Under the pieces are notes generated by a model. It searched no databases. It was given only the letters and a program-made list of their open reading frames with translations, and was not told the origin of the DNA. A DNA stretch of 64,000 bases, from assembly GCA_026645735.1 (NCBI GenBank), contig JAPKMT010000011.1:1-64000 (forward strand), written 5' to 3'. Positions 1,613-61,519 of the stretch are shown piece after piece. Every line of letters begins with the position of its first letter. Positions within the stretch are counted from its first letter, which is position 1. Made by a program: the position numbers and the translations under genes. The DNA is from Flexilinea sp. GTDB taxonomy: Bacteria > Chloroflexota > Anaerolineae > Anaerolineales > Anaerolineaceae.

Positions 1613-1734
1613 CAGTAATTCGAAATATGGAAAAGCCTTTTGAGAGAAAAGAGAAATCTTGTTGTTGTGTTGTTTTTGCGCGAAGCGTAATACTATAAAA
1701 ACAACCAAGAAATCTTTTCAAATTTCGAAGCGTT
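1613..1734. repeat. Nested palindromic repeat, full copy (partly decayed)
   Basis: The left end reads CAGTAATTCGAAATATGG and the right end AAATTTCGAAGCGTTG, so the ends are inverted copies. The centre has TTGTTTTTGCGCGAAGCG and a poorly matched right arm ending ACAACCAAG. It lies immediately before the ribosome site of the gene at 1752. Confidence 0.75.
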
Positions 1735-1751
1735 GACAGGAGTGAAATAGG

Positions 1752-3344
1752 ATGAATCTTGACGGTCCGCCTACCTTCCAGGGAAGCATAAAGAAGATAC
1801 AGATTATTTCCAACAATATCTGCTTTGCACCTCGTCCTGAGCCTGACGAAGAAGTTGAACAGCGTCTGACAATCAATGCTGATGGTGGCGTATGGTTCTC
1901 CGGCTATACCTTCGGCCAGGGTTTTCATAATTATCTGTGCGGACGCAGGAAGAACTTCACCATTGGAAAAGAAGCCGCTGTTCCTATCTTAAATGCAATC
2001 GGCACTTATTTCAGCGATGCGCAGGATATGGTATTTGTCACGGATAGCGGCCGCTGGGATGTGACCATCACCAACACTGCGGGTAAACCATATCAATTTG
2101 CAGGGTCGATTGGTTTCGATCTAAATGTTGACGGTGTTGACCTCTCCGATCTGATACGTGATACACTCAATATGCCGGACTTGTTCTTGTTTGATGGAAA
2201 TTCCAAGCCGGACAGCGTCAATAAAATCTCAATAAACTACCATCGAGTCACAAAAATTAAACCCAAAGTTCCTTTTAGTGATTCGGTGGAATACTGCACA
2301 TGGGATTACTCAGAGCAACTCATACTCGACAGAGAATCTGAATCCCTGGAACACATTCAACAGTTCGGATCAGGTTGTATCGTTTCGAAAAAATATTATG
2401 TACAGGATGGCGTTGTAAATTTGCTGGATAACCTCGACGCCGACAGATTATTTGCGCATATATACGGAAATTCTCCGGACGATTTAATCGATCCGCTCGA
2501 AACAAAGAATTATGAAATCACGGTGGACTTCAAGAAACGACCGCGGCTTATGATCAAGGGGACTTTTGATAAGAACGGATTACCCAGTGATTTTCCAGAA
2601 TTGGCAGAGAGCATTTTTGATTTTATGCAGTTTTATAATATTGGGGAAATGCTTAATCCCGCTGTATACACCAAAGCAAGGCGTAAGACCAATGATTACA
2701 TCTTTTGCAGCGTGGAGTTTAACGAGAGCGGTAAAAGTTATTACTACGCAACCGAGGATGATACGTTAAAAATTGGTGATGATGTTTTAGTTCCCGTTGG
2801 AAAAGATGGACATAGCGCCATTGCGAAGATTATTCGTATTGAGTATTTCCAGGAGGATAATGTCCCGTTCCCGATGGATAAGATAAAGCAAATCATACGG
2901 AAGTGCACCGATGATGATTTTAACATATCCATAGAAGCGAATATACAAGAAAATAAAAGTATTGAGCTGGATAAAATCAATCCTATGATTGAAAAACGAT
3001 TCGACAACAAAGATCCCATGGGATCTTTTGAAGAATTCGAGCTATGTAATGAGGAATTCTCTCGTGTAAAGGTAAAAGTTTGGGCTGAGTTATCAGGAGG
3101 TTGTCTGATGATTTCAGGTCAGGACTTAGGTGAGGCCGCTGTGGTTATGTCCGGTGAGAATGAATATGAGTATTTTTATAAATTTGACCAGGAAAACACA
3201 GAGCTTTTATTTGCTTTGTTAGCCCCCAAAAGGGAGAATATGAAAGAAATGCTGCTACAGAAGTTTGGCGGAATGGATGGCTGCAGCTTATTGCGAGAGT
3301 TTTGCAATGTCAATAACATCACCTACAGCTTTTTTTCGTGTTAG
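1752..3344 (+). CDS. Protein of unknown function upstream of the hsd operon
   Basis: I do not recognise this 530-aa soluble protein. It has no signal peptide or membrane segment. Two parts can be seen. The N-terminal 240 residues are rich in aromatic residues and beta strands. A middle segment around residues 310-375 (YYYATEDDTLKIGDDVLVPVG, then YFQEDNVPFPMDKIKQIIRKC) resembles a small beta-barrel module seen in other uncharacterised Bacillota proteins. The C-terminal 130 residues look like a separate compact domain. The start is supported by GACAGGAGTG ten bases before the ATG. It lies 290 bp before hsdM on the same strand, but there is no coupling and no motif tying it to restriction. It could equally be independent cargo. 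Confidence 0.6.
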   Translation: MNLDGPPTFQGSIKKIQIISNNICFAPRPEPDEEVEQRLTINADGGVWFSGYTFGQGFHNYLCGRRKNFTIGKEAAVPILNAIGTYFSDAQDMVFVTDSGRWDVTITNTAGKPYQFAGSIGFDLNVDGVDLSDLIRDTLNMPDLFLFDGNSKPDSVNKISINYHRVTKIKPKVPFSDSVEYCTWDYSEQLILDRESESLEHIQQFGSGCIVSKKYYVQDGVVNLLDNLDADRLFAHIYGNSPDDLIDPLETKNYEITVDFKKRPRLMIKGTFDKNGLPSDFPELAESIFDFMQFYNIGEMLNPAVYTKARRKTNDYIFCSVEFNESGKSYYYATEDDTLKIGDDVLVPVGKDGHSAIAKIIRIEYFQEDNVPFPMDKIKQIIRKCTDDDFNISIEANIQENKSIELDKINPMIEKRFDNKDPMGSFEEFELCNEEFSRVKVKVWAELSGGCLMISGQDLGEAAVVMSGENEYEYFYKFDQENTELLFALLAPKRENMKEMLLQKFGGMDGCSLLREFCNVNNITYSFFSC

Positions 3345-3633
3345 ATATTGGGCTGAAAAAAACGGTTTACGAAATAATCATCAGCATTTCGATATTTCGA
3401 ACAGCAGATGAAAGAAATTACACATCCGAAAATGAAAATTGACTTCTATTTTCAGAGGAATTGCTGCTGAATGTTTCCGCGTATGTCCAGAGGCCGGTGA
3501 TATCATTTAGAGTGTCTCGTTCCTCGTGGAGACGACGGTATTGATCTCAATGCAGCGAGAGCGGGGGATAATCAATCAGGATGATGAGAACAAAGAACAG
3601 TGATTCTCTTAAAAAAAGAGTGAGGATTCAGGA

Positions 3634-6219
3634 ATGAATAAGCAGCAACTGGCAACAAAAATTTGGGAATCAGCCAATAAGATGCGTTCCAAAATCGAAG
3701 CCAACGAATACAAGGATTATATTCTTGGCTTTATCTTTTATAAATTTCTGTCGGACAAAGAAGTCCGCGATATGCAAAGCGACCGCGCTACCTTTGAAGA
3801 TATCAGGCACTTAAGGGAAGAAGATATTGAAATTGTCCAGCACATCCAGGGAAATATCGGCTATTTCATTGCCTATAAAGACTTGTTTTCCACCTGGCTT
3901 TCCATGGGCAAAGATTTTGATGTTTCGAATGTGCGTGATGCGCTCTCAGCCTTCAACCGTTTAATTGACAGCAATTACAAGAAAGTATTTGGTAATATTT
4001 TTGAGACGCTTCAAACCGGACTGTCTAAGCTGGGCGAAAGCGCTGGCTCACAGACAAAAGCCATCAGCGATCTCATTCAACTGATAAAAGATATCCCGAT
4101 GGACGGCAAACAGGACTATGATGTTTTGGGCTTCATTTACGAGTATCTCATCTCCAACTTTGCAGCCAATGCCGGCAAGAAAGCCGGCGAATTTTACACG
4201 CCGCATGAAGTATCGCTGTTGATGAGCGAAATCGTGGCTGATCATCTGAAGGATCGCAAGGAAATCCAGATCTACGATCCGACAAGCGGTTCCGGCAGCC
4301 TGCTGATTAACATCGGGCGCAGCGTTGCCAGGCACATGGATAATGAGAATAACATCAAATATTATGCCCAGGAGCTGAAACAGAACACGTATAACCTGAC
4401 CCGTATGAATCTGGTTATGCGCGGCATTTTGCCGTCTAACATCACGACTCGCAATGGTGATACATTGGAGGACGACTGGCCGTATTTCGAAGATAATGAC
4501 CCGGTCGGTACCTATAACCCACTGTATGTGGACGCCGTTGTTTCCAATCCCCCCTATTCGCAGCAATGGGATCCGGAAGATAAGGGCGCTGACCCGCGCT
4601 ATGCCCGTTTTGGTCTGGCGCCAAAAGGGAAAGCAGACTATGCCTTTTTACTGTATGACCTGTATCATATCAAACCGGATGGCATCATGGCCATCGTTCT
4701 TCCGCACGGTGTATTATTTCGGGGCGGCGAAGAAGGTGCTATTCGTAAGAACCTGATCGAGAACAATCATATCGATGTCGTCATTGGACTGCCGGCCAAT
4801 ATCTTCTTCGGCACAGGTATACCGACCATTATTATGGTGCTTAAACAAAAACGTGCAAATACGGACGTGCTGATCATCGACGCATCCAAAGGTTTTACGA
4901 AGGTCGGCAAAAATAACATGCTGAAAGCATCGGATATCAAACGAATCTCCGATACGGTAGCGGCTCGGAAAGAGGTCTCGAAATTTGCGCGTGTGGTCAG
5001 CCGTGATGAGATTCGAAAGAACGAATACAACCTCAACATACCGCGTTATGTGGATTCTTCCGAGGCTCCTGAAAGCTGGGATATTTACGCTTCCATGTTT
5101 GGAGGAATTCCCAAAACGGAAATCGAAGAACTCTCTGCTTATTGGCAGACTTTTCCGGAGCTGAAGATGGATTTGTTTACGAATGACCCTGGTGAACACG
5201 TACACATTGCGGAGGGCAACGTCAAAGATATCATCAAAAACCATCCGAATGTCGCCGTTTTCAAGGAACACTACGCGAGGGCTTTCGAAGGTTTTGATGC
5301 CGAGTTGTACCGTGATCTGGTGGCCGGAGTGAACACGCTGAATATCTCCAAAGAAGAAACGAAGCTCAGCGCTGAAATTTTTAAGCGCCTGGTATCGGTG
5401 CCGCTGGTGGATGAATATCATGCCTATCAGCTCCTGAATGATGCGTGGATCAAGATCGCCGTTGACTTGGAAATGATTCAAACCGAAGGTTTCAAGGTAA
5501 CGAAACAAGTGGACCCGAATCTGGTGATCAAGAAAAAGAATGGAAATGATGTGGAAGTCCAGGAAGGCTGGCTGGGCAGAATCATCCCCTTTGATCTGGT
5601 GCAAGAAACGCTGCTACATGCGGAAGCAACAGCCCTGAAAGAAAAAGAAGAACGCCTCACACAGGTAACAGCCGGGCAGCAAGAAATCCTTGATTCACTG
5701 ACGGAAGAAGAAAAAGGAGACCTGGCGGATGTTTTGAATGACGACAATACCGCATTTCTGGCGAACCCGTTGAATAAAATAGCAAAAGAGCTGCTCAAGG
5801 GGCACGATGCGGCAGACTACACCGAAGACAGCCTGGAAGGCAAGATCATCACTGTGATGAACCTGCTCGATGAAGAAAAGGAACTGAAGAAAACCATCAA
5901 GACCGATTCTGACAAACTGCATGGACTCACAAAAGAAACCATTGAAGCCCTGACAGACGAACAAGTCTGCGCTTTGCTGGCGTTAAAATGGATCACACCC
6001 CTGATCACCGAATTACGAAAGATGCCTGAAGTCATCCTCGACCAACTCGCAGCCAGAGTGCAATCGCTTGCGGATAAATACGCTGTGACCTTTGCCGATG
6101 TGGAAAAAGAAATCGAAGAGACCGAAGCATCGCTATCCTCCATGATCGAAGGGCTCACCGGCAGCGAGGCGGATAGGAAGGGCCTGGCTGAGCTGAAGAT
6201 CCTGCTGGGGGGTGCGTGA
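3634..6219 (+). CDS. hsdM: Type I restriction-modification methyltransferase subunit HsdM
   Basis: The modification subunit of a type I restriction system transfers methyl from S-adenosylmethionine to adenine N6 within the HsdS-specified site. An N-terminal HsdM helical domain covers about residues 5-150. The SAM motif DPTSGSGSLL follows at about 215 and the catalytic NPPY at about 305. The start has AGTGAGGATTCAGGA before the ATG. At 861 aa it is much longer than the usual 500-550 aa. The extra 330 residues at the C-terminus are charged, helical and probably coiled-coil. HsdS starts inside its stop codon (GTGA), so the two are translationally coupled. Confidence 0.95.
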   Translation: MNKQQLATKIWESANKMRSKIEANEYKDYILGFIFYKFLSDKEVRDMQSDRATFEDIRHLREEDIEIVQHIQGNIGYFIAYKDLFSTWLSMGKDFDVSNVRDALSAFNRLIDSNYKKVFGNIFETLQTGLSKLGESAGSQTKAISDLIQLIKDIPMDGKQDYDVLGFIYEYLISNFAANAGKKAGEFYTPHEVSLLMSEIVADHLKDRKEIQIYDPTSGSGSLLINIGRSVARHMDNENNIKYYAQELKQNTYNLTRMNLVMRGILPSNITTRNGDTLEDDWPYFEDNDPVGTYNPLYVDAVVSNPPYSQQWDPEDKGADPRYARFGLAPKGKADYAFLLYDLYHIKPDGIMAIVLPHGVLFRGGEEGAIRKNLIENNHIDVVIGLPANIFFGTGIPTIIMVLKQKRANTDVLIIDASKGFTKVGKNNMLKASDIKRISDTVAARKEVSKFARVVSRDEIRKNEYNLNIPRYVDSSEAPESWDIYASMFGGIPKTEIEELSAYWQTFPELKMDLFTNDPGEHVHIAEGNVKDIIKNHPNVAVFKEHYARAFEGFDAELYRDLVAGVNTLNISKEETKLSAEIFKRLVSVPLVDEYHAYQLLNDAWIKIAVDLEMIQTEGFKVTKQVDPNLVIKKKNGNDVEVQEGWLGRIIPFDLVQETLLHAEATALKEKEERLTQVTAGQQEILDSLTEEEKGDLADVLNDDNTAFLANPLNKIAKELLKGHDAADYTEDSLEGKIITVMNLLDEEKELKKTIKTDSDKLHGLTKETIEALTDEQVCALLALKWITPLITELRKMPEVILDQLAARVQSLADKYAVTFADVEKEIEETEASLSSMIEGLTGSEADRKGLAELKILLGGA

Positions 6220-7481
6220 AAATGCCTGAAAATGAAAAAGTGCCTGCCATCCGATTCAAAGGCTTCAGCGATGTTTGGGAACAGCGTGAGTTTGCTGAAA
6301 TGGTTATAAGAAACTCTACATTGGCTGTTTGCAATAGCGGTTTGCCAAGTGTCGAGTACGAGGACATAATTTCTGGACAAGGTGTTCTAAATAAAGACAT
6401 TAGAGAGAAAGAGACAGTCAAAACAGGCATCAGATTTTCCCCTTATGACGTCCTTTTCGGAAAGCTCCGTCCATACCTTCAGAACTGGCTTTTGCCTGAT
6501 TTTTCGGGCGTTGCAGTGGGAGATTTTTGGGTAATGAAGCCATCAGAAATAGACAGCCGATATTTATATTACCTTATCCAAACGCCGCCTTTTCAAGTAG
6601 CTGCAAATCAATCCACGGGTACAAAAATGCCCCGTGCAGACTGGAGTCTGGTGTCAAAAACTCCTTATTATTTACCGAAGAATCATGCTGAACAAGCGAG
6701 AATTGGACAGACATTACAAACCCTCGACAACCTTATCACCCTTCATCAGCGAAAGCTTTTGAAACTCAAAAATGTTAAAAAAGCCATGCTTGAAAAAATG
6801 TTTCCTAAAAACGGAAGCAACGTTCCGGAAATTCGATTTTCCGGATTTTCGGATGCTTGGGAACAGCGTAAGTTCTGCGAAACCTTTATATATTTACAAA
6901 ACAATTCGCTTTCACGAGCAGATTTAAACTACGAGCAAGGCTTGGTAAAAAATGTTCATTATGGTGACGTCCTGATAAAGTTTGGCGAAATATTAGATGT
7001 AGTAAAAGCGGAAATACCGTTCATTTCTAACAATGAATTTGCTGTAATTAACACATCATTATTGCAGAATGGAGATGTCATAATTGCCGATGCTGCAGAA
7101 GATGAAACGGTCGGTAAATGTAGTGAAATCAATGGTATAGAGGATTCAAGTGTTGTCTCAGGATTACATACGATCCCTTGTAGACCTACCAAGACATTTG
7201 CATCAGGTTATCTGGGATATTATTTGAATTCAAGTGCTTATCATGATCAGTTGTTACCCTTGATACAAGGTACAAAAATTTCATCTATTTCAAAATCAGC
7301 GCTACTGAATACTGACATTGTTTACCCTGATTCAGAACAAGAACAGTTACAAATTGGACAGTTTTTTCAAAGTCTCGACAATCTTATCACCCTTCAACAG
7401 CGTAAAGTTGAAGCATTGCAGCATCTCAAAAAAGCCTGTCTTGAGAAGATGTTTGTATCAGGAAGGAGCGTGAACTTGTGA
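6216..7481 (+). CDS. hsdS: Type I restriction-modification specificity subunit HsdS
   Basis: The 421-aa DNA-recognition subunit selects the bipartite target for HsdM and HsdR. It has two half-repeats. Each target recognition domain begins with a near-identical block (IRFKGFSDVWEQREF at about residue 12, IRFSGFSDAWEQRKF at about 206). Each ends in a conserved coiled-coil spacer (LITLHQRKLLKLKNVKKAML and LITLQQRKVEALQHLKKACL). The start is GTG overlapping the hsdM stop; an ATG two codons later is also possible. The variable domains look richer in A+T than the conserved blocks, as expected where recognition domains are exchanged. HsdR starts at a GTG overlapping its stop. Confidence 0.95.
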   Translation: MKMPENEKVPAIRFKGFSDVWEQREFAEMVIRNSTLAVCNSGLPSVEYEDIISGQGVLNKDIREKETVKTGIRFSPYDVLFGKLRPYLQNWLLPDFSGVAVGDFWVMKPSEIDSRYLYYLIQTPPFQVAANQSTGTKMPRADWSLVSKTPYYLPKNHAEQARIGQTLQTLDNLITLHQRKLLKLKNVKKAMLEKMFPKNGSNVPEIRFSGFSDAWEQRKFCETFIYLQNNSLSRADLNYEQGLVKNVHYGDVLIKFGEILDVVKAEIPFISNNEFAVINTSLLQNGDVIIADAAEDETVGKCSEINGIEDSSVVSGLHTIPCRPTKTFASGYLGYYLNSSAYHDQLLPLIQGTKISSISKSALLNTDIVYPDSEQEQLQIGQFFQSLDNLITLQQRKVEALQHLKKACLEKMFVSGRSVNL

Positions 7482-10400
7482 TCTTTAATACGGAAGCGGA
7501 ATTTGAAGCCGCCATGATTGCAGCCTTGCAGAATAAAGGCTGGGAAAAACAGGTTCTTCAATACCCGACAGAAGAGGCATTGCTGCAGAACTGGGCGAAT
7601 ATCCTGTTTGAAAACAATCGCGGCATCGATCGCTTAAATGATGCTCCTTTGACGGATACGGAGATGCAGCAGATTCTGGAGCAAATATTGACGCTTCGTA
7701 CGCCTTTAAAACTCAATGGTTTTATTAATGGCAAGACGGTCTCCATCACCCGTGATAATCCGGATGATCCTTGCCATCTGGGCAAAGAAGTGAGCCTTAA
7801 GATTTATGACCGCCTTGAAATAGCCGCCGGGCAAAGCCGATACCAAATCGCTCAGCAGCCTCACTTCAAATCTAATTCACATATTCTGAATGACCGCCGC
7901 GGCGATTTGATGCTGCTTATTAACGGCATGCCGGTGTTTCATTTGGAGCTGAAAAAGAGCGGTTTTTCTGTCAGTCAGGCGTATCACCAGATTGAGAAGT
8001 ACTCCGATGAGAGTATTTTCACCGGGATCTTTTCTTTAGTGCAGATATTTGTGGCGATGCAGCCCGAAGAAACGGTCTATTTTGCGAATCCCGGACCTGA
8101 TGGCGTTTTTAATAAGGACTTTTATTTTCATTGGGCGGATTTCAATAACGAGCCCGTCAACAAATGGAGCGATATCGCGACGGTTCTTCTGTCCATACCG
8201 ATGGCTCATCAGATGATCGGTTTTTATACTGTGGCTGACGATTCGGACGGTGTGCTGAAGGTCATGCGCAGCTATCAGTATTATGCGGCCAATGCAATCT
8301 CGGATCGTGTGTCAAAGATTGACTGGAGCTATAAGCAGTTGCTTGGGGGCTATATTTGGCACACCACAGGCTCGGGGAAAACAATGACGAGCTTTAAGTC
8401 TGCTCAGCTCATCGCGAATTCGAAGGATGCCGACAAGGTGATCTTCCTGATGGACCGGATTGAGCTGGGCACGCAGTCGCTTCAAGAGTATCGCGCTTTT
8501 GCGGAAGACAATGAAGCGGTTCAGGCGACTGAGGATACCCGTGCGCTCATCACAAAACTGAAAAGCAAGGATCCTGTCGATACGCTGATCGTCACATCCA
8601 TTCAAAAGATGAGCAATATTAAGGACGAAGAGGGCGGCTTGAATGCTGCGGATATTGCGTCGATGACCTCCAAGCGGATTGTTTTCATCGTGGATGAAGC
8701 ACACCGTTCCACGTTTGGCGACATGCTGATCACTGTGAAACACACTTTCCCTGGGGCCGTGTTTTTTGGATTTACCGGCACACCGATTCATATGGAGAAC
8801 CAGATAAGGATGAATACGACAGCGACCATCTTTGGCGATGAGCTGCACCGCTATAGCATCGCAGATGGCATTCGTGACGGGAATGTGCTTGGCTTCGATC
8901 CGTATAAAGTCCTGACTTATGCGGACATGGATCTACGAAAAGCGGTGGCACTGAAGAAGGCAAATGCCGCTACAGAAAAAGAAGCCATTAGTGACCCGAA
9001 GAAAAAAATCAAATATTATCACTACATGGATAATGTCAATGTGAAAATGGTCGGATACCGTGAAATGAACGGCAATTACGTCAAAGGAATTGAAGATTAT
9101 CTGCCGAGAGAACAGTACGATCGTACCGAACACCACAAAATGGTAATACAGGACATTTTGGATAACTGGCTGCGATTGAGCCACGCCTCAAAGTTCCACG
9201 CGATTTTTGCAACCAGCAGTATCCCGGAAGCCATCGCGTATTACAGGCTCTTTAAAGAGTCAAAACATGATCTGAAAATCACAGCGCTGTTTGATCCAGC
9301 TATCGACAATAACGGTGGTGTGAAGTTCAAGGAAGACGGTCTTGTTGAGATTCTGGAAGATTACAATGCAGCATATGAGCAAGACTTTACTTTAGCCACT
9401 TACGGGAAATTTAAGAAGGATATTGCAGCCCGCCTGGCACACAAGAAGCCGTATGAGCGTATCGAACGCAACCCCGAAAAACAGATTGACCTTTTAATCG
9501 TAGTCGATCAGATGCTGACGGGTTTTGACTCCAGGTGGGTCAATACACTTTATTTGGACAAAGTCCTCAAATATGAGAACATCATTCAGGCGTTTTCTCG
9601 TACGAACCGTCTGTTTGGTCCCGAGAAACCTTTTGGCACGATTCGTTATTACCGGAAACCAAACACGATGGAAAGAAACATCAACGAAGCAGTAGCGCTC
9701 TACTCCGGTAATCGGCCACTTGGATTGTTTGTGGAACATCTGGACTACAACCTGGAGAAGATGAATCAAATTTTCGCTGATATTTCATGTCAATTTACAA
9801 TGGATGGAATCTTGGACTTCTCCCGCCTGCCAGAGGATGCAGCTGAGCGTGGCAAGTTTGCCAAGCTGTTCAGCAGTCTGAATGATCATCTGGAAGCAGC
9901 AAAAATACAGGGATTCACCTGGGAGAAGCCGGCTTTCACTTTTGAGAATCCAAAAAAAGTTGTCAAGATGGCATTCGACGAGAACACCTATCTGACACTG
10001 GCGTTACGTTACAAAGAACTTTTTTCAGGACCAAGTGACGATGACGGCGGAGATATCCCGTTTGATATCGATGGACATCTGGCAGCGATCGATACGGGCA
10101 GAATTGATACGAATTACATGAATTCGCGCTTTGAGAAATATTTGAAAGTGTTGTATCAGGACGATATGGATCAGGCTCGGCTTCAAGCAACGCTGGACGA
10201 GCTGCATCAATCTTTTGCGACCCTTACTCAGGAAGAACAGAAGTATGCCAATATTTTTATCCATGATGTGCAAAGTGGAAATGCTGAAATCGAGGATGGC
10301 AAGTCCTTCCGGGATTACATCACGGAATACCAGTCCCTCGCCAAAAAAGAGCAGGTTCGCCAATTAGCGAATGCGCTGGGGGTTGATATTCCAAAGCTGG

Positions 10401-10618
10401 AAAACCTTATGAATGCCGGCGTTACTGAAGCGAGTATCAACGAATACGGCAGGTTCGATGACCTGAAGAAAACCGTAATCAGGGAGAAAGCCGCGGAATA
10501 TTTTGTGTCGGCGGAAGGCACACAAATCCCAGCTTTCCATCTGAGCATCAAAATCGATAAGCTGCTCAAAGATTTTATCCTCAATGGGGGATTGGATATC
10601 CATGCGGAAAAAAAATAA
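7478..10618 (+). CDS. hsdR: Type I restriction endonuclease subunit HsdR
   Basis: This 1046-aa motor and nuclease subunit pulls DNA in and cuts away from the recognition site. The N-terminal PD-(D/E)xK nuclease is visible as RGDLMLL followed by HLELKKSG at about residues 144-168. The superfamily 2 helicase follows: Walker A TGSGKT at about 297-302, DEAH box VDEAHRS at about 405, and FGFTGTP motif III. The TGFDSRWVNTLYLDK and QAFSRTNR motifs lie further on, followed by a helical C-terminal domain. All key residues look intact, so the system is probably active. The GTG start overlaps the hsdS stop by four bases. Confidence 0.95.
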   Translation: MIFNTEAEFEAAMIAALQNKGWEKQVLQYPTEEALLQNWANILFENNRGIDRLNDAPLTDTEMQQILEQILTLRTPLKLNGFINGKTVSITRDNPDDPCHLGKEVSLKIYDRLEIAAGQSRYQIAQQPHFKSNSHILNDRRGDLMLLINGMPVFHLELKKSGFSVSQAYHQIEKYSDESIFTGIFSLVQIFVAMQPEETVYFANPGPDGVFNKDFYFHWADFNNEPVNKWSDIATVLLSIPMAHQMIGFYTVADDSDGVLKVMRSYQYYAANAISDRVSKIDWSYKQLLGGYIWHTTGSGKTMTSFKSAQLIANSKDADKVIFLMDRIELGTQSLQEYRAFAEDNEAVQATEDTRALITKLKSKDPVDTLIVTSIQKMSNIKDEEGGLNAADIASMTSKRIVFIVDEAHRSTFGDMLITVKHTFPGAVFFGFTGTPIHMENQIRMNTTATIFGDELHRYSIADGIRDGNVLGFDPYKVLTYADMDLRKAVALKKANAATEKEAISDPKKKIKYYHYMDNVNVKMVGYREMNGNYVKGIEDYLPREQYDRTEHHKMVIQDILDNWLRLSHASKFHAIFATSSIPEAIAYYRLFKESKHDLKITALFDPAIDNNGGVKFKEDGLVEILEDYNAAYEQDFTLATYGKFKKDIAARLAHKKPYERIERNPEKQIDLLIVVDQMLTGFDSRWVNTLYLDKVLKYENIIQAFSRTNRLFGPEKPFGTIRYYRKPNTMERNINEAVALYSGNRPLGLFVEHLDYNLEKMNQIFADISCQFTMDGILDFSRLPEDAAERGKFAKLFSSLNDHLEAAKIQGFTWEKPAFTFENPKKVVKMAFDENTYLTLALRYKELFSGPSDDDGGDIPFDIDGHLAAIDTGRIDTNYMNSRFEKYLKVLYQDDMDQARLQATLDELHQSFATLTQEEQKYANIFIHDVQSGNAEIEDGKSFRDYITEYQSLAKKEQVRQLANALGVDIPKLENLMNAGVTEASINEYGRFDDLKKTVIREKAAEYFVSAEGTQIPAFHLSIKIDKLLKDFILNGGLDIHAEKK

Positions 10619-10935: not shown

Positions 10936-10961
10936 AACGGAAATCATTTCGATCATAAACT

Positions 10962-11014
10962 AGCGATTCGAAATTTCTCTCCATTCAAAAAGTGTGTCCA
11001 AATTTCGAATCGCT
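10962..11014. repeat. Short hairpin-less form of the nested repeat
   Basis: Perfect 15-bp terminal inverted repeats, AGCGATTCGAAATTT and AAATTTCGAATCGCT, enclose only 23 bases, without the central hairpin. It lies in the mntP leader between the terminator and the ribosome site. Confidence 0.75.
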
Positions 11015-11038
11015 GATCATCAACAAAGAGAATTGAAA

Positions 11039-11735: not shown

Positions 11736-11740
11736 AATTG

Positions 11741-48068: not shown

Positions 48069-48072
48069 AAAA

Positions 48073-51335: not shown

Positions 51336-51380
51336 AGGAATCAAGATAAAAATAATTTGTTTAATGCGGGAGAACCATCA

Positions 51381-51501
51381 TCAATTCAAAATTTGGATTG
51401 GCTTTTCGAATAAAGAAAGAAAAAATATTGTTCTTATGGGTTTGCACGAAGCGCAAACCCATAAGAACAACGATGAATTATTTTCATATTTTGAATTATT
51501 G
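51381..51501. repeat. Nested palindromic repeat, full copy
   Basis: Left end CAATTCAAAATTTGGATTGG, right end TCATATTTTGAATTATTG. The central stem at 51428-51470 has arms of 20 bases, with a single A-C mismatch, around loop GAA; the apex is GCACGAAGCGC. It runs up to the ribosome site of the gene at 51509. Confidence 0.9.
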
Positions 51502-51508: not shown

Positions 51509-53074
51509 ATGATTCCCGGAGAATATAGATTAAAATTTCCAACAATCCGTCGTTTTACATTTTTTTTCTTTATTTTTCTGATCCTCATCTACACTGGTTT
51601 GATTGTATATTTTGAGTATGACCAGAATCGCAAATTGGTCGATTATTTCGATTATCGTGATGAATTACTGGATAATTCGATTCAGGATATTTTAGGAACC
51701 TACGAGGAGTTTTCCAATTTTATTTTTGATTCACAAATTAACCAGGATTCTGTTCTTAAACTGATTGCGCAGGCTAATGAAGGCAGTGAGACTGCAAAAG
51801 GGACAATTCGGCAACAACTTTATAGCGACTTGCTGCAAATATATGAGCGTATTCAGACTTATAATTTTCGGCAACTCCATTTTCATTTGGCCAATGGCGA
51901 GAGTTTCCTGCGATTTCACAGTCCTGATAAGTACGGTGACAATCTGATGGATGTTCGGGAATCAATCCGCATTGCAAACGAAGAAAAACGCTATGTGACG
52001 GGATTTGAAGAGGGCAGAATTCTCAACGGTTACCGGTTTGTGTATCCTTTAGCTTATAGCGGTTCTCATATTGGGAGCGTCGAAGTGTCCGTATCCATGG
52101 CCAGTGTTATTTCAGAACTATATAAAAGCAGTATCAAGAGAGACGTAGGTTTTCTGATCGACAATGATCTTGTGGAAAACACGGTTTTCTCGGATGAACA
52201 AAACCGTTATATGCCAAGTTTTGCCGCTGAAAATTATCTGCATGACAAAGAGGTATTCCAACTGATTGAAGAAAGTACGAACAGTGTTAAATTTTACAAA
52301 GATGCCAATTTCATTGAAAAATTAAAAGCAACTATAAATGAAGACCTCCGTTTAAAAGAATCGTTTCGCAATTCTCTGTTTTACAATGGGAAAGCTTATC
52401 TGGTTCAGTACCTTGCGGTTAAAGATATATCCGGTAAACCGGCCGGTTATTTATTTTCCATCAGTGAAAACAGTTATTTGTTGGAAATTCAAAGACAGAA
52501 GATGATTATGCTCTTCTTTTCTATATTTACAATTCTAATTTTGATCACAATGTTCTGGATCACTCTGAAAATTCAAAGCATTGTCCGTAAAATGATAATG
52601 GTAGACCAACTGACACAAGTTTACAACCGATCCTCATTTTTTGAATTTTCCCTGAAGGAAGCTGCGAGACAACGGAGAAATCACAGTTCTTTGTCGTTTG
52701 CGTTGTTGGATATTGATCATTTTAAGATTATCAATGATACATTCGGACATTCTGCCGGGGACAGCACGCTGAAACAGCTGGCTGAGATTGTGTCCAAATC
52801 AATTCGGGAATATGATATTTTTGCTCGCTATGGAGGTGAAGAATTCGTTTTGTTGCTGCCGGATACCAGATTGGAAGATGGATCTGCCATATTGGAAAGG
52901 ATCAGAGAACGAGTCGCAGCATACGATTTTCCAACCGTAAAACATATTACGATCAGTGCCGGTGTGATTGAAAAGAGACCGGAAGAGAGTGTTGATGTTG
53001 CGATCAGCCGGGCTGATTCGGCGATGTATGAAGCGAAGGCCAGAGGCAGAAATCAGGTTGTACAGGAATCATAA
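51509..53074 (+). CDS. Membrane diguanylate cyclase with extracytoplasmic sensor
   Basis: A 521-aa protein with helices at about 12-35 and 328-350. Between them is a 290-residue extracytoplasmic sensor of Cache-like character (FHLANGESFLRFHSPDKYGD). The C-terminal GGDEF domain (about 360-515) has an intact active site, RYGGEEFVLLLPD at about 440-452, and an REYD inhibitory site five residues before the motif, so it should be product-inhibited. The start follows TTGAGG, supplied by the edge of the nested repeat. Confidence 0.94.
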   Translation: MIPGEYRLKFPTIRRFTFFFFIFLILIYTGLIVYFEYDQNRKLVDYFDYRDELLDNSIQDILGTYEEFSNFIFDSQINQDSVLKLIAQANEGSETAKGTIRQQLYSDLLQIYERIQTYNFRQLHFHLANGESFLRFHSPDKYGDNLMDVRESIRIANEEKRYVTGFEEGRILNGYRFVYPLAYSGSHIGSVEVSVSMASVISELYKSSIKRDVGFLIDNDLVENTVFSDEQNRYMPSFAAENYLHDKEVFQLIEESTNSVKFYKDANFIEKLKATINEDLRLKESFRNSLFYNGKAYLVQYLAVKDISGKPAGYLFSISENSYLLEIQRQKMIMLFFSIFTILILITMFWITLKIQSIVRKMIMVDQLTQVYNRSSFFEFSLKEAARQRRNHSSLSFALLDIDHFKIINDTFGHSAGDSTLKQLAEIVSKSIREYDIFARYGGEEFVLLLPDTRLEDGSAILERIRERVAAYDFPTVKHITISAGVIEKRPEESVDVAISRADSAMYEAKARGRNQVVQES

Positions 53075-55229: not shown

Positions 55230-55352
55230 CAGTAAATCGAAATATGAATTTACTTTTCGAATAAAAAAAAGAGAATTTGTAGTTCTTATGGTTTTGCGCG
55301 AAGCGCAAAACCATAAGAACTACAATGAATTATTTCTACAATTCGAATTGCC
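55230..55352. repeat. Nested palindromic repeat, full copy with perfect hairpin
   Basis: Left end CAGTAAATCGAAATATG, right end ACAATTCGAATTGCCG. The central hairpin at 55277-55325 has perfect 23-base arms and loop GAA; the apex is GCGCGAAGCGC. Its right side encodes the last codons and stop of the minus-strand gene ending at 55320. Confidence 0.92.
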
Positions 55353-57182
55353 GATCAGGTAGTGGATCACTTCTCGGATTTGAACAGGTGTGCCTTCTTC
55401 TTTAGCACAACGACATGCGCCTTCGAATTCAGTCAGTCGGGCGTCATCCACTGGAGCTTTGTCCCAGCATTTTTTGGCGCCGATGAAATTGCCTGCTGCA
55501 ACACGGCGCATAATTCCCCGGATATCTGCTGCATCTCCCGCTGTGCAGGATGGGAACTCGCACAATCGACAGCGCATCGCTGCTTGCATCACGGAACGGG
55601 ATCGTTCATCATAGGATTCGAAAAGACGGTCGGTGATAAACGGTTTTTCAACGATTTTGACATAATTTTTCATCTCTTTTTGATAAATATACGGTTCTTT
55701 TCCAAGCTTCTTCAGCAGGGCATTTGCCGCAGCCACTCCGGAAATCGTGACGGTTGGAGTACCGGTTCCCATGACGGTTGATTCTCCGCAGCAGAATAGG
55801 TTGTCCCATTCAGATCTGGTGTGCAATCGATGGAACATATGCTGTCCAATCATCTGTTTGGGCCCGGCAACTGCTCCGCCGTTTTTTAAGGTATACCGTT
55901 CGATCGTGCGGGGCGAAGCCAATTCCACATAGCGAATGGCTTTTGAAAAACCTGGAAAACGTTTTTCCAACACTCCGATCAGCCTTTTTATCTCTTTCTC
56001 TTTCTTTTTTTGATATTCCTGAGCGTCATCCGTAAACCATTTTTCAAAAGTCGGACCGATGGCTGCAATGGTATGTTCATCTTCCCGGCAGAGGGTCTTG
56101 TCATCAATGCTCATGATATAAACGGTAACTTCACTCTCGTCCAGTTTATCCGGATTGCCGATCAGCATTTCAATCGGCGCTGTGTCCTTTGGAATAGCAT
56201 CGCTGTTGACAACCGCATAGAGCACAACACTTGGATAGGTTGGTATTTGTTTCCGTGCCCATTCTCTGCGCTCCTGTGTTGTGAATGCGGGATCGATCAA
56301 TTTCTCGTACAGATTCCACACAGTCCCTGAATAAATAATGTTTGGAGCAAAGATCGATGTGCCATCATTCAATTGAACCCATGCAGGTTTTCCATCTTTA
56401 AAAATCAACGAGACAGCTTCGCGTTCAAGCAGCATATCCCCGCCATTTTCTTCGATGACTTTCTCCAGTTTCCCAGGCAGATAAAGCGTGGATCCTGCCG
56501 GATAATAGCTGCCTCCGACATGATTATCAACAAACATGACCGCAGCAAGAACCGCAGGCGCTTCTTCTACCGTGGCATAACAATATGTCGAGGTCAGTTT
56601 GTCGAAAAACTTAAAAATTTCCGGATCTGTGAAGTATTTTTGCAGCAAATCCTTAGCGCTTTTATTGAGTAAACCAAGAAAGCGGGCATAAGAAATCGGA
56701 TGTTTGAGCATGTTTTTCAATGCGGACTTTCGATCTTGCTCATCGGCAGTTGTGTAACTGGGATTTTCAACGAGGACATGCTGGTACATCTTCAGCATGT
56801 CGCGATAGAAACGATGGATATTTTCTTTTTCTGCGGGGAAAACTTCCGAAAGTTCGTCTGCAAATTTGTGGACATCAGCCCAAAAGCGGATTCTTTTCCC
56901 TTTAAAATTGACGCAATATAAAAGATCGTGGCGGATGATATCGATCGGTTCTTCAAGCGCATTAAAGACAAATCGATGTGCATTGAATCCATGTTCGCCA
57001 AAGCCGTATAACATGGCTGCACCTTGATCAAAAGTGACATGTCCGCGTTTGAATATACCGCAAGAACCGCCCGGATTATAGCTCTTTTCGACAACGGCTA
57101 CGGAGAGATTTCGTTTCGCCAGCAAGCTGGCAGCTGTTAATCCGGAGAGACCACCACCGATGATAATTACGTCATATTTCAT
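55320..57182 (-). CDS. CrtI/CrtISO-like FAD oxidoreductase with Cys-rich tail domain
   Basis: A 620-aa flavoprotein. The N-terminal FAD site is DVIIIGGGLSGLTAASLL and VVEKSYNPGGSCG. A phytoene-desaturase-type body follows, with the C-terminal FAD motif CCGESTVMGTGTPTVTISG at about 480. After residue 530 an extra segment has CRLCEFPSCTAGDAADIRGIM, AAGNFIGAKKCW and ACRCAKEEGTPVQIREV. It resembles the Cys-rich ferredoxin-like N-terminal domain of glutamate synthase small subunits, so it may carry an Fe-S centre. The last residues (SNCRNNSL) come from an inserted nested repeat. The substrate is unknown: a carotenoid-like or other polyene/enone. Confidence 0.88.
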   Translation of the reverse strand: MKYDVIIIGGGLSGLTAASLLAKRNLSVAVVEKSYNPGGSCGIFKRGHVTFDQGAAMLYGFGEHGFNAHRFVFNALEEPIDIIRHDLLYCVNFKGKRIRFWADVHKFADELSEVFPAEKENIHRFYRDMLKMYQHVLVENPSYTTADEQDRKSALKNMLKHPISYARFLGLLNKSAKDLLQKYFTDPEIFKFFDKLTSTYCYATVEEAPAVLAAVMFVDNHVGGSYYPAGSTLYLPGKLEKVIEENGGDMLLEREAVSLIFKDGKPAWVQLNDGTSIFAPNIIYSGTVWNLYEKLIDPAFTTQERREWARKQIPTYPSVVLYAVVNSDAIPKDTAPIEMLIGNPDKLDESEVTVYIMSIDDKTLCREDEHTIAAIGPTFEKWFTDDAQEYQKKKEKEIKRLIGVLEKRFPGFSKAIRYVELASPRTIERYTLKNGGAVAGPKQMIGQHMFHRLHTRSEWDNLFCCGESTVMGTGTPTVTISGVAAANALLKKLGKEPYIYQKEMKNYVKIVEKPFITDRLFESYDERSRSVMQAAMRCRLCEFPSCTAGDAADIRGIMRRVAAGNFIGAKKCWDKAPVDDARLTEFEGACRCAKEEGTPVQIREVIHYLIGNSNCRNNSL

Positions 57183-57464
57183 AGAAAACCCCCTGTTTTT
57201 TCGTTTTCTCCTCGGAAAGATAATTCTGAGGGCGATTTTCTTTTTGTTTCTCTCTCGATTCTTTTCCTGCGAACCACTTTAATGTCAGGAATATTTACAG
57301 CGTTCTGGTAGTCATTCGAAATTTGGAATAATTTTGTTGAAAAAGAGAGAAAAGTAGATGTTGTGCTGCTTTTCCCCTTGACGATGGAAATTTGAAACGC
57401 AGACAATAAAACCTGAGGAAATTCATATTCAATATCAGAAGATTATAATAGGAACTATGCCTCA
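57183..57464. other. Gene-poor region
   Basis: Fragments of the nested repeat (ATTCGAAATTTGGAATAATT at about 57314; AGTAGATGTTGTGCTGCTTT at about 57353) and of another repeat (GGAAATTTGAAACGCAGAC at 57385) lie here. No gene is seen. Confidence 0.45.
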
Positions 57465-57526
57465 CAGCAATTCTAAATATGGATTGACTTTTCGAATAGA
57501 GAATTCTTTTCATATTTCGAATCGCT
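57465..57526. repeat. Short hairpin-less form of the nested repeat
   Basis: Left end CAGCAATTCTAAATATGG with GATTGACTTTTCGAATAGA, joined directly to GAATTCTTTTCATATTTCGAATCGC. It is the full repeat minus exactly the central hairpin. Confidence 0.75.
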
Positions 57527-57654
57527 AATGGGAATTAGGAGAAACGAATAATAATCGGCTAAGAATACTAAAGAATTTTCCCTTAATGAATGATGATCTA
57601 TATGAAATTATTTGATAACAAGTCAAATAGAATGGATGAAAGTAAGGGCGAAGC

Positions 57655-57720: not shown

Positions 57721-57742
57721 AATTTATGAATCATTTATTATA

Positions 57743-57811
57743 TAAACCTTTTGGCACGAAGCGCAAAACCAAAAGAACAACAAAGAATTCTTTTTATATT
57801 TCGAATAAATG
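57743..57811. repeat. Left-truncated nested repeat
   Basis: ACCTTTTGGCACGAAGCGC then AAAACCAAAAGAACAACAAAG and right end TTATATTTCGAATAAATGG. The left arm has lost a few bases and the left end is missing. It borders the ribosome site of the MFS gene. Confidence 0.65.
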
Positions 57812-57825
57812 GAGAGGACTAATCT

Positions 57826-59064
57826 ATGAAGGAAAGATTGAAAATGCGTTTTTCGCCTGCGGTGACTGTGATCATGCTATTTGGTTTTATCAGCATGTTC
57901 GGCGATATTATCTATGAATCGGCAAGAGGTGCGAACGGACAGTATTTCAATCTGCTGCATATCAATGCTGCGCAAATCGGACTTGTTTTTGGAATTGGTG
58001 AATTTCTCGGATATTTCTTACGGCTTGTTTCCGGTGTTTTTTCCGATCGGCGCGGCAATCATTGGCTGCTGATATTTCTGGGATACGGTATGTTGGCAGT
58101 CGTGCCGCTCATTGGATTCACCATGAAATGGAATTTGCTGATTGTGCTGATCTTGATGGAACGAATCGGAAAAGCACTTCGCAGTCCGGCAAAGGATACG
58201 ATTCTATCCGCAGTTGCAGAAAAACAGGTCGGGATCGGAATGGCCTTCGGACTGCAGGAAGCATTAGATCAAATCGGCGCTTTCATCGGACCGATGATTT
58301 TCACAACAGTCTTTTTCTTATCAGGGGAAAATGGCATCACACAATATCAGACGGGCTATCGTTTGCTTTTCTTACCATACGGGATGTTAATGCTGTTTTT
58401 AGTCTTTGCTTATTCAAAAATTAAAAAGGATCAGCTGATAACAGGAGATGAAAAAAGGGAAAAACCTTCAGAGCAGCTCCAACCCATTTTTTGGATTTAT
58501 ACAGCTTTTACTTTTTTCTGTACACTGGGATTTGTCAATTTCAGTATGGCAGGGTATCACCTGAAAGCCAACCATCTTTTACCGGACGGCAGTATTACGA
58601 TGCTGTACTCGGTTGCAATGATTGTGGATGCTGTAACAGCGCTGGTAATCGGAAAAATTTATGATCGAATAAAAATACGGACAGAAAAACAAACGGGTGG
58701 CATACTGGTTCTGGCGGCGATTCCGCTTCTGACCATGCTGCTGCCAATTTTTGTATTGAGCGCTTCAAGAATTTGGATTGTCATTGGTATGATCGTTTTT
58801 GGCATGATCATGGGCACGCATGAAACGGTGATGCGCTCCGCAATCGCGGATATTACGCCATTTCATAAGCGAGGTACCGGCTATGGCGTTTTTAATACAA
58901 GTTATGGATTGGCTTTGTTGGTTGGAGCTGCAATCATGGGATGGCTTTATGATCAGAATCAAAAAGACCTCATTATCGTTCTAAGCTGTATTTCGGAATT
59001 AATCGCCTTCTTTCTATATTCCATGATGAATCGGATGGTGAAGGGAATTCATCCGGGAAAATAA
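57826..59064 (+). CDS. Major facilitator superfamily transporter
   Basis: A 412-aa integral membrane transporter with about twelve helices and a cytoplasmic mid-loop (around 200-215). The motif-A-like loop FSDRRGNHWLLI between helices 2 and 3 and RIGKALRSPAKDTI after helix 4 are typical of drug or metabolite exporters of this superfamily. GAGAGG precedes the ATG. The substrate is unknown. The DUF1232 gene follows directly. Confidence 0.9.
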   Translation: MKERLKMRFSPAVTVIMLFGFISMFGDIIYESARGANGQYFNLLHINAAQIGLVFGIGEFLGYFLRLVSGVFSDRRGNHWLLIFLGYGMLAVVPLIGFTMKWNLLIVLILMERIGKALRSPAKDTILSAVAEKQVGIGMAFGLQEALDQIGAFIGPMIFTTVFFLSGENGITQYQTGYRLLFLPYGMLMLFLVFAYSKIKKDQLITGDEKREKPSEQLQPIFWIYTAFTFFCTLGFVNFSMAGYHLKANHLLPDGSITMLYSVAMIVDAVTALVIGKIYDRIKIRTEKQTGGILVLAAIPLLTMLLPIFVLSASRIWIVIGMIVFGMIMGTHETVMRSAIADITPFHKRGTGYGVFNTSYGLALLVGAAIMGWLYDQNQKDLIIVLSCISELIAFFLYSMMNRMVKGIHPGK

Positions 59065-59481: not shown

Positions 59482-59596
59482 CAACGGTTTGAAACATGGA
59501 ACGGGTTATTTGTAGTAGTGTTGTTTTTGCGCGGAGCGCAAAAACAACACTACTACAATTTCTCTCAAAAGGCTTTTTCCTATTTTGAATTTCTGG
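59482..59596. repeat. Nested palindromic repeat, full copy with perfect hairpin
   Basis: The central hairpin at 59510-59558 has perfect 23-base arms and loop GGA (GCGCGGAGCGC). The outer right end CTCAAAAGGCTTTTTCC and TATTTTGAATTTCTGG is good; the left end GGTTTGAAACATGG is diverged. Confidence 0.9.
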
Positions 59597-60162: not shown

Positions 60163-60254
60163 AAAACCCATTTGTATCCTATAAAATCAAAGAATGATGT
60201 TGTTTATTTTTGTATGTTTCGCATAACAGCGAAGATAATTGATTGGAGACAAAA

Positions 60255-61208
60255 ATGGATTCAATCATTCAATGGTTGCTGGATGGCGATGTATCTATCC
60301 AATATTTGACCCGTCTTGAATTATTGGGCGAATCTCCCGATCAGCTTCAATCGTTGCAGAAAAGGATTGAGACAGAAGGGTATGGAGCGCGATTTCTTGC
60401 GTCACGGAATGAAAACGGACATTGGGGCATCTGGTTCTATCAGCCCAAATGGACCTGTACGCATTATACCCTGCTGGATTTGAAAGAAATCGGTATACCG
60501 CGTGACAATCTTTCTTGCAGAGAAATGGTCATCCGTGCTCTTAATCAATGCATGCTGGATTCTGGCGGGATCAATTTCGCAAAATCAAAAATCCAATCGG
60601 ATATGGCGATAGACGGGATGTTCTTGAATTATGCAGCCTTTTTTTGTCCTGAAGACGCGAGAATTGAACGATTAGCTTCTTTCATTATTCGATACCAGAA
60701 AGCAGATGGCGGATTTTCCATGGATCCTGGAGGTCTGCAAAGTGATCCACATACAACCTTGTGTGTTCTGGAAGGTTTTGCAGCCTATCGAAAAGCAGGA
60801 TTTACAAAATTTCTGGATGATATCAACTACTCGGAATCCACAGCGATTGAATGGCTTTTGGCGAAAGACCTGTTCATGTCTGATGATGTCCGATACCGGA
60901 AATTCTCTTTTCCTTATCGGTACCGGTATGATCTTTTGCGAGTTCTTGCGTATTTTTCCAGAAATCATGTGACAATGGATTCCAGAATGGAACCTGCAAT
61001 TCAATGGCTGATCAGAAAAAAAGATTCTTCCGGATGCTGGTATCTGGAAAATATCCATCATGGTAACGTTCATTTTCATTTGGAAGAAAAGGGAAAACCA
61101 AGTCGTTTTGTAACATTGAAAGCCTTGTTTATTCTAAAGAATTATTACCAATCGGACGGATTGGCAGATTTACCAGCAATTCGAAATATGGAAATGCTTT
61201 TCGAATAG
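60255..61208 (+). CDS. Prenyltransferase/squalene-oxidase-repeat-like protein
   Basis: A 317-aa soluble alpha-helical protein with repeats of the terpenoid-cyclase/prenyltransferase alpha-barrel fold: WGIWFYQPKWTCTHYTLLDL, DGGFSMDPGGLQSDPHTTLCVLEGF split over two helices, and SGCWYLENIHHG. No DxDD catalytic motif is visible, so it may only share the fold. ATG 60255 follows TTGGAG. The final codons AIRNMEMLFE and the stop lie within an inserted nested repeat, so the native C-terminus was replaced. Confidence 0.75.
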   Translation: MDSIIQWLLDGDVSIQYLTRLELLGESPDQLQSLQKRIETEGYGARFLASRNENGHWGIWFYQPKWTCTHYTLLDLKEIGIPRDNLSCREMVIRALNQCMLDSGGINFAKSKIQSDMAIDGMFLNYAAFFCPEDARIERLASFIIRYQKADGGFSMDPGGLQSDPHTTLCVLEGFAAYRKAGFTKFLDDINYSESTAIEWLLAKDLFMSDDVRYRKFSFPYRYRYDLLRVLAYFSRNHVTMDSRMEPAIQWLIRKKDSSGCWYLENIHHGNVHFHLEEKGKPSRFVTLKALFILKNYYQSDGLADLPAIRNMEMLFE

Positions 61209-61294
61209 AGAAAGGAAATTCATAGTAGTGTTGTTTTTGCGCTTCGTGCTAAAACAACACTACTATAATTATTTTTTAATATTTCGAATAGCTG
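61174..61294. repeat. Nested palindromic repeat, full copy (inverted apex)
   Basis: Left end CAGCAATTCGAAATATGG, right end AATATTTCGAATAGCTG. The central stem at 61222-61266 has 21-base arms with one G-T and one T-T pair around TTC. The apex reads GCGCTTCGTGC, the reverse of other copies. Its left end encodes the tail of the gene ending at 61208. Confidence 0.9.
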
Positions 61295-61397
61295 CAGATT
61301 TACAAAGATGGTTGTATCAAACCGATTTTCAATTTAGAATTAATTGGAATTGATAAGGGATATTGTTTATTCAATGATAATAATGATATTGGTAGTA

Positions 61398-61519
61398 AGT
61401 AATTCGAAATTTGGAAAAGCCTTTTGAGAAAAAAGAGAAAACTTGTTGTTATGTTATTTTTGCGTTCTGCGCAAAAATAACATAACAACAAGTAATTCTC
61501 CTCAAATTTCGAATGGCTG
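61398..61519. repeat. Nested palindromic repeat, full copy with perfect hairpin
   Basis: Left end AGTAATTCGAAATTTGG with AAAAGCCTTTTGAGAAAAAA, right end CTCAAATTTCGAATGGCTG. The central hairpin at 61441-61493 has perfect 24-base arms around TTCTG. It is about 100 bp after the previous copy. Confidence 0.92.

Follow-up and report, generated by a model that had tools for sequence, protein, structure and literature searches.

The first 64 kb of contig C2 (JAPKMT010000011.1) of Flexilinea sp. (GCA_026645735.1), which we call the window, hold a family of short repeat elements with inverted ends and a long central hairpin, and this raises the question of what these elements are, how they spread and why their hairpin arms vary widely between copies yet tend to stay complementary, also at orthologous sites. 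The window belongs to a 3.35-Mb draft genome of 86 contigs (G000); the handles G010 (a related genome used for comparison), G003, G008, G059, G041, G241 and G388 denote further genomes. Taken together, our results make it highly probable that the repeats are miniature inverted-repeat transposable elements (MITEs) that an unclassified (ISNCY-like) insertion sequence mobilises in trans through its DDE-like transposase, and that their hairpin arms are homogenised by template switching.

To count the elements we used an end profile and called convergent end pairs 36–220 bp apart in 864 kb, composed of the window and 400 kb each of G000 and G010. This census gave 200 paired-end copies, compared with 4 in the reversed sequence, covering 2.5% of the bases. 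The typical element is about 123 bp long, and 67 of the 200 sampled copies fall into the largest length bin, 120–124 bp, in line with the size of about 105–125 bp given in a preliminary description of the window. The terminal inverted repeats, CAG-YRATTCGAAATWTGG, stand at the left and right ends in opposite orientation, and two shoulders of unequal length, about 29 and 11 bp, separate them from a central hairpin with about 22 bp per arm and a three-base loop. Two subfamilies were distinguished, A with the shoulder AAAAGCCTTTTGAGA and the arm TTGTTGTTGTGTTGTTTTTGCGC, and B with the shoulder ATTGACTTTTCGAATAAAG and the arm TTGTTGTTCTTATGGTTTTGCGC. The strings quoted in the preliminary description are consensus-like, with exact ATTCGAAATWTGG occurring six times on the plus and twice on the minus strand, AAAAGCCTTTTGAGA twice and once, and GATTGACTTTTCGAATA once. 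Short, non-coding and bounded by inverted ends (length mode 120–124 bp; 200 paired ends against a null of 4), the elements have the make-up that defines MITEs.

Twenty paired-end elements were called in the window and none in the reversed window. All nine full copies of the preliminary description were recovered with starts within 2 bp (1613, 29267, 31801, 34062, 51379, 55230, 59482, 61174 and 61397), and 15 of the 20 elements start beyond 26.9 kb, which agrees with the reported clustering toward the later part. Several of the 20 (for example 11630-11743, 13358-13541, 45013-45211 and 47542-47699) are low-scoring or long and may be chance or composite pairs. A direct-repeat analysis of the window also recovered copies, as families D1-D4, D6, D7 and D10. 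The copies and related sites are as follows.

1613–1735, plus strand: full-length MITE of subfamily A with a decayed right hairpin arm; same-site copy at G010:C3:1164500-1164621.
10961–11015, unoriented: 55-bp hairpin-less form with flanks ATCATAAAC/ATCATCAAC (8/9); same-site 55-bp copy at G010:C3:1168836-1168890.
12882–12965, unoriented: shortened, decayed copy of 84 bp.
26962–27063, plus strand: decayed copy of 102 bp.
29267–29381, plus strand: 115-bp copy of subfamily A with target duplication GATGTTCGC/GATGTTTGC (8/9).
31801–31919, plus strand: 119-bp copy of subfamily B with flanks ATGACAACG/ATGTCAATT (6/9).
34062–34166, minus strand: 105-bp copy of subfamily A with a perfect 27-bp stem and a 5-nt loop.
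40207–40293, unoriented: shortened copy of 87 bp.
48072–48172, minus strand: decayed copy of 101 bp.
51379–51501, plus strand: full-length copy of subfamily B with flanks GAGAACCAT/AGGAACCAT (7/9).
55230–55353, plus strand: full-length copy of subfamily B with a perfect stem; flanks TCAGATAGT/TCAGGTAGT match 8/9 only with a 1-nt offset.
57309–57402, unoriented: decayed copy of 94 bp.
57465–57527, unoriented: hairpin-less short copy of 63 bp.
57723–57811, unoriented: half copy consisting of a right end and a hairpin remnant, with no paired left end called; direct-repeat families D3 and D4.
59034–59042, plus strand: empty site with a single GATGGTGAA; the G010 counterpart is a 124-bp copy flanked by AATGGTGAA/GATGGTGAA.
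59482–59595, minus strand: 114-bp copy of subfamily A with a perfect 23-bp stem; near C3:1194796-1194981, G010 has a probable relative at the same site.
61174–61294, plus strand: copy with the exact duplication CAGATTTAC on both sides; the open reading frame (ORF) 60243-61208 runs into it.
61397–61519, plus strand: full-length copy of subfamily A with a perfect 24-bp stem and a 5-nt loop; flanks match 6/9.

The ORF called for a manganese efflux pump (Mntp) begins within the 55-bp element at 10961-11015, which places this element at the 5′ end of the ORF. In the sample as a whole, only 11 of 142 better-scoring elements lie inside called ORFs, despite 81–86% of the bases being called coding, and the reported location at gene borders therefore holds. 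The window contains no tRNA that we could find, and no Rfam family matches it at gathering thresholds.

The family extends far beyond the window. A search with the 1613 copy yielded 510 first-look candidates in G000 (40 scored), and the end pattern CAGNNATTCGAAATWTG, with at most two mismatches, matched 567 and 500 times on the two strands, compared with one match on each in the reversed control. Extrapolation from 115 pairs in 464 kb gives about 800 copies in G000, a figure that includes some long or low-scoring pairs that are chance or composite. With at most one mismatch, end matches on the two strands of 61 genomes numbered 350 and 313 in G000, 270 and 331 in G010, 67 and 82 in G003, and 4 and 8 in G008; the remaining 57 genomes had 0–2 per strand, and the controls 0–1. 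The presence of end matches on both strands of G010 was also seen by reading its DNA directly. These four genomes belong to one genus, whose other sampled members lack the expansion. That the copies might stem from a segmental duplication confined to this region, or from an assembly artefact of the window, is practically negligible and is refuted by the many G000 contigs, and by G010 (three contigs) and G003, in which copies have different flanks and their own duplications.

We then considered the marks of transposition. The target duplication is 9 bp long: at least 8 of 9 flanking bases matched in 30 of the 200 copies at offset 0, compared with at most 2 copies at any of six other offsets tested and 0 of 195 mismatched controls. 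By copy length, duplications of at least 7/9 were found in 27 of 70 copies of 120–125 bp, 2 of 28 of 100–119 bp, 7 of 25 of 70–99 bp, 8 of 31 of 45–69 bp, 0 of 13 of 35–44 bp and 0 of 33 longer than 125 bp. The elements of 35–44 bp were considered as mobile mini-forms and rejected, because none of the 13 carried such a duplication; they resemble half copies in which the inner arm passes for an inverted end. MITEs of the IS630/Tc1 type (RUP-like) create a TA duplication, and this assignment was likewise rejected, as the duplications here are 9 bp long and of varied sequence.

The same marks bear on repetitive extragenic palindromic (REP) elements, or their mosaics (BIMEs), spread by a RAYT transposase of the Y1 HuH type. 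Such elements are palindromic, extragenic and present in high copy number, as are those described here, but REP elements mobilised by RAYT are not known to leave a target duplication. The 9-bp duplications, the terminal inverted repeats and the DDE-like partner described below speak against them (HuH transposases were not searched for), and by eye the consensus ends contain no GTAG or CGTC tag; we regard this origin as a very remote prospect. The preliminary description had likened the family to either a MITE or a REP-type element. Its MITE half is supported by the inverted ends, the 9-bp duplications, the dispersal, the empty sites and the insertion sequence with the same ends, whereas its REP half is not.

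Because the window is partly collinear with G010:C3 (1162 to 1198 kb), insertion sites could be compared. Requiring both flanks to map in collinear blocks, we placed 75 of 115 G000 copies, of which 33 were shared, 0 empty and 42 neither, and 93 of the 229 G010 copies with full flanks, of which 35 were shared, 6 empty and 52 neither; the shared class includes low-scoring pairs inside conserved genes. Three of the 93 mapped G010 copies face a precise empty site (gap −9, 8/9 duplication), and the same rule gave none among the 75 mapped G000 copies. These are G010:C3:1194225-1194348 versus window 59034-59042, G010:C2:99914-100020 versus G000:C11:135637-135645, and G010:C3:1945478-1945599 versus G000:C33:66361-66369, the last with a less well conserved single target copy. 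The other three empty sites, with duplications of 5 or 6 of 9, were not counted. Because copies such as those at window 1613 and 10961 are shared with G010 at the same sites, part of the family predates the split of G000 and G010 or was exchanged between them. The flanks of the 1613 copy and G000:C33 at about 48.9–56 kb are 97–100% identical to G010, compared with about 75–90% for most other aligned blocks; recent interspecies exchange or cross-assembly would account for such near-identical stretches.

Two loci concern the choice of insertion site. At G010:C3 around 484495–484770 (L129), three element ends or elements stand in a row, spaced by about 8–9 bp, as if new copies had repeatedly inserted beside old ones. 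At G000:C44:5072-5195 (L163), a G000-specific copy is inserted into the end of an older relic that is uninterrupted in G010. Old copies may be preferred insertion targets.

The preliminary description had also noted that the window lacks a transposase, so that mobilisation would occur in trans. Pfam scans of 20 window ORFs gave no transposase (2 of the 20 had no family at all), and PF01609 had no match in the contig of the window; no search of the whole window was aimed at further transposase families. G010 contains an intact, 1,632-bp insertion sequence with the same ends, which supports mobilisation in trans. It begins with CAGCAATTCGAAATATGAG, ends with CATTTTTCGAATTACTG, has terminal inverted repeats that match at 16/18 positions and is flanked on both sides by the exact 9-bp duplication GCATTCTGT. 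It encodes a DDE-like protein of 446 amino acids. D128, D216, D217 and E344 do not vary between this protein and seven aligned relatives (36–43% identity) and could form a DDE triad. Among the 61 relative genomes, G010 has this transposase, G059 a relative at 42% and G041 a fragment; across 400 genomes of the order, 23 had a match. Relatives also occur in 13 plasmid records, 8 of them cyanobacterial, all below 60% identity, and one (Gloeothece) is annotated as an ISNCY family transposase.

We tested ends and duplications at 15 loci and obtained four clear solutions (9/9 duplication, terminal repeat match of at least 16/18), in G010, G241 (1,403 bp), Anabaena cylindrica (1,876 bp) and Calothrix (1,865 bp); the other loci gave none, some owing to an unsuitable contig stretch or reading direction. 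All four left ends start with CAGCAATTC. A second Calothrix plasmid copy has a 9/9 duplication, and the Gloeothece copy has the same kind of ends with flanks that match at only 3/9. In 150 kb of two cyanobacterial plasmids, a search for MITEs with cyanobacterial-type ends returned only the insertion sequences themselves. In a search for full-length insertion sequences with the ends of the MITE family, end pairs 0.2–4 kb apart with a duplication of at least 8/9 were absent from the G000 part of the 864-kb sample, and G010 gave two unconvincing, low-scoring, T-rich cases.

The classification of the transposase is less clear-cut. It has weak matches to PF13808 and PF01609, below both cut-offs, no NCBIfam family at E up to 10, a best match to a solved structure at E 0.42, and nothing similar in phage records. 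PF01609 itself matched below threshold once in G000, in an IS1634-type transposase, and twice in G010, where one match falls within the 1,632-bp element; G003 had no match. The weak Pfam matches of the transposase suggested the ISAs1 family, and membership was rejected: the ISAs1 model of NCBIfam did not match at E up to 10, whereas a true Calothrix ISAs1 control scored 427 bits, and direct comparison of the two proteins gave E 0.14. A likeness to the ISNCY type lies in the annotation of the one Gloeothece homolog, the lengths of 1.4–1.9 kb and the 9-bp duplications of the relatives, although NCBIfam assigns the G010 protein to no family. The partner may belong to the ISMae2 group of ISNCY.

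The G010 insertion sequence is likely the autonomous partner of the MITE family, and the MITEs were probably spread by a transposase that is found in a related species. Judging from the shared terminal sequences, we infer that the G010 transposase or a close relative moved the MITEs of G000. In G388 (L238-L257), 17 of 58 end matches lie within 250 bp of a contig start, and four loci inspected there settled nothing; this pattern suggests repeated insertion sequences at assembly breaks, and such breaks could hide a transposase in G000 too. A very abundant MITE is hereby linked to a transposase family that is poorly classified and extends into cyanobacteria, and the ends, the duplication length and a candidate transposase are now defined for a direct test.

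A literature search, which had incomplete coverage and did not extend to ISfinder, and Rfam gave no described repeat family that matched. Bacterial MITEs such as Correia, ERIC, Chunjie and RUP are, as described in the available parts of two sources, likewise short, non-coding and intergenic, with inverted repeats, target duplications, decayed or shortened copies and mobilisation in trans; the long central stem with in-register variation is a property of the present family and not among the features described there (PMC10969869, PMC3049150). Several hundred copies per genome would be at the high end for bacterial MITEs judged by the same texts, which give 711 ERIC copies in Photorhabdus luminescens (PMC10969869, PMC3049150). 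Nezha, a cyanobacterial MITE, is proposed to be moved by ISNpu3-like elements (PMC3049150), and thus resembles the present case, by description and not by sequence comparison, in pairing a MITE with an insertion sequence through its ends. Cyanobacteria, the hosts of Nezha, also account for 8 of the 13 plasmid records that contain relatives of this transposase family.

We next turned to the hairpin. For 145 of 181 full-length copies that passed an alignment filter, stem changes were sorted by the divergence of the shoulder. In five classes of rising divergence, compensated double changes numbered 9, 5, 27, 64 and 95 and uncompensated ones 0, 0, 3, 8 and 36, compared with 0.5, 0.4, 4.8, 20.6 and 49.9 double changes of any kind expected under independence; one-sided changes numbered 12, 12, 59, 95 and 179. 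The sixth class contains a single copy with 0 compensated changes, so that compensated pairs are in excess in five of six classes. In a genome search, 98 places matched a pattern with 14 fixed bases in each arm and 8 free pairs. Among the 50 of these that were listed, none of the 400 free pairs was mismatched, and 17 of their 23 arm sequences occurred once; at least two of the other places (L004 and L012) have a one-sided change at a free pair. Nearest-neighbour comparison gave 31 compensated, 44 one-sided and 1 uncompensated double difference for 69 stems of G000, and 52, 72 and 7, respectively, for 34 stems of G010, in a set restricted to stems with at least 18/22 pairs, a filter that favours pairing, and with shared ancestry, so that not all differences are independent.

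Orthologous copies allow the same question to be asked at single sites. Among 55 same-site comparisons, at least 15/22 pairs were formed in both genomes in 11, in one only in 13 and in neither in 31, where many of the 31 score low and perhaps lacked a hairpin from the start, and the flanks align poorly in several of the 13. The 11, together with the window 55230 copy and its G010 counterpart (aligned by eye), make 12 stems, of which seven were kept and five (C11:52474, C11:113991, C33:95200, the G010:C2:73729 copy and the G010 copy aligned to C33:41253) were dropped because of poor alignment, distant flanks or misplaced loops. In the seven (154 pairs; two stems identical in both genomes), 12 one-sided, 7 compensated and 1 uncompensated double change were seen, and independence predicts 0.42 compensated changes (P = 3 × 10−7). 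Between the two copies of the 55230 pair, one stem pair shows a compensated change and two changes are one-sided. In the five dropped stems, whose orthology is unsure, one-sided changes number 17, compensated double changes 29 and uncompensated ones 10. Because the seven of 12 pairs were chosen after seeing them, and because selecting stems with at least 15 pairs biases toward pairing, most weight falls on the clearest single case. This is G010:C3:1970295-1970452 versus G000:C33 from about 48784, where the flanks are 97–99% identical and one T-A pair has become A-T on both arms with no other base of the 22-pair stem changed. Hairpins have also been deleted in place, in G000:C11:65913-65985 (73 bp) and in G010:C2:100614-100670 (57 bp), each opposite a 123-bp copy in the other genome. 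Orthologous copies thus record both compensated stem change and hairpin deletion in place.

When elements were oriented by their longer shoulder, 94 of 103 loops were RRA or its complement TYY (GAA 25, AAA 16, GGA 10, AGA 5; TTC 13, TTT 9, TCC 12, TCT 4). Flipping of the hairpin tip would explain these loops better than independent changes at three positions. From this hairpin signature and published work on quasipalindromes, we infer that template switching is the mechanism. In E. coli it makes imperfect inverted repeats more perfect (PMC7202029); in yeast it is reported to homogenise arms and invert spacers (PMC8604942); and a third study describes it as able to generate and preserve RNA hairpins (PMC8794818). 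The signatures given in these texts are homogenised arms and inverted spacers (PMC8604942, PMC7202029, PMC8794818), and here the process would act on hundreds of dispersed mobile-element hairpins.

In the proposed course of events, non-autonomous elements of about 123 bp would be inserted in trans by a transposase that shares their terminal inverted repeats and 9-bp duplication, and the inserted copies would then be inherited and decay. The long hairpin, as an imperfect palindrome, would be a mutation hotspot, where one arm is overwritten with a copy of the other by template switching at replication; the stem could then stay paired while its sequence drifts, and the loop could flip. At times most of the hairpin would be deleted, giving the short forms of about 55–80 bp.

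Several observations weigh against this account. In every comparison but the pattern-selected set, one-sided stem changes are more numerous than compensated ones; the large class with the greatest divergence has 36 uncompensated double changes; and the same-site comparisons more often lack a paired stem in one or both genomes than retain it in both. The shared 1613 copy pairs only 14 and 12 of 22 positions in the two genomes, with mostly one-sided stem differences, and no loop flip was found between clear orthologues. Hairpins are often lost and not maintained, with many decayed or deleted. As for the partner, the transposase was not found in the draft genome G000 or in G003, where the link rests on shared ends, and the MITE and the insertion sequence have only about 17–18 bp in common.

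Paired arms could also reflect selection on a host RNA or DNA structure, such as a terminator, an mRNA-stability element or a cruciform that binds a protein. The typed subfamily-A sequence folds as RNA at −54.1 kcal/mol with a z-score of −9.5, a very stable structure, and the strong covariation and the intergenic position of the copies would suit such a role. Their placement does not: based on home-made gene calls, 74 copies lie between tandem, 40 between divergent and 15 between convergent genes, compared with 83.6, 35.0 and 18.9 kb of such space, so that the enrichment between convergent genes typical of terminators is missing. Orientation shows no preference (23 same, 18 opposite, P = 0.53), and Rfam has no match in the window. 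Together with the in-place loss of the hairpin in one member of two orthologous pairs, placement and orientation make selection on RNA less likely, and we consider a selected structure improbable. Base-pair covariation tends to be read as proving that an RNA is functional; in this family, many inserted copies, those at orthologous sites included, covary strongly, although neither their placement nor their orientation hints at an RNA function.

A second way to obtain paired arms is that the hairpin is needed for, or rebuilt in, transposition, so that spread is limited to copies with matched arms and covariation arises in the source lineages. In favour of this, the least diverged copies (shoulder divergence below 0.04) already have 9 compensated double changes against 12 one-sided ones. 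The many arm sequences that occur once among the 50 listed places would, however, require many separate sources, compensated changes separate orthologous copies at one site, and short, mostly hairpin-less forms have good duplications (the 8 of 31 at 45–69 bp), some of which later deletion explains. We therefore regard this alternative as unlikely, if the least unlikely of those considered. A related and rather doubtful idea is that the hairpin is not a passenger: a self-templated step in transposition or replication would rewrite one arm from the other and renew the stem and the loop orientation, and the element would keep a diverging but paired palindrome that possibly aids its movement, with ends exposed as single strands or as a cruciform. 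If homogenisation by template switching after insertion is indeed the cause, the family is a natural experiment on how fast this process acts on hairpins in bacteria.

The remaining features of the window concern its genes. A type I restriction-modification operon (HsdM, HsdS and HsdR by Pfam) occupies 3634-10618, within an unaligned interval of about 7.3 kb that corresponds to about 2.3 kb in the collinear G010 block and looks like a lineage-specific island. Within the HsdS gene, a 54-bp repeat (6701-6754 and 7352-7405, 83% identical) probably represents the internal conserved repeats of HsdS. A 300-bp repeat, 88% identical, links 975-1274 to 26433-26732, the second copy lying in a glyoxalase-like gene, and the window seems to hold two paralogues. 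Several GGDEF/EAL signalling genes are present (31954-33054, 37517-40039, 48507-51335 and 51509-53074), two of which share long repeats with each other, and a further similar stretch lies at 62.6–64 kb.

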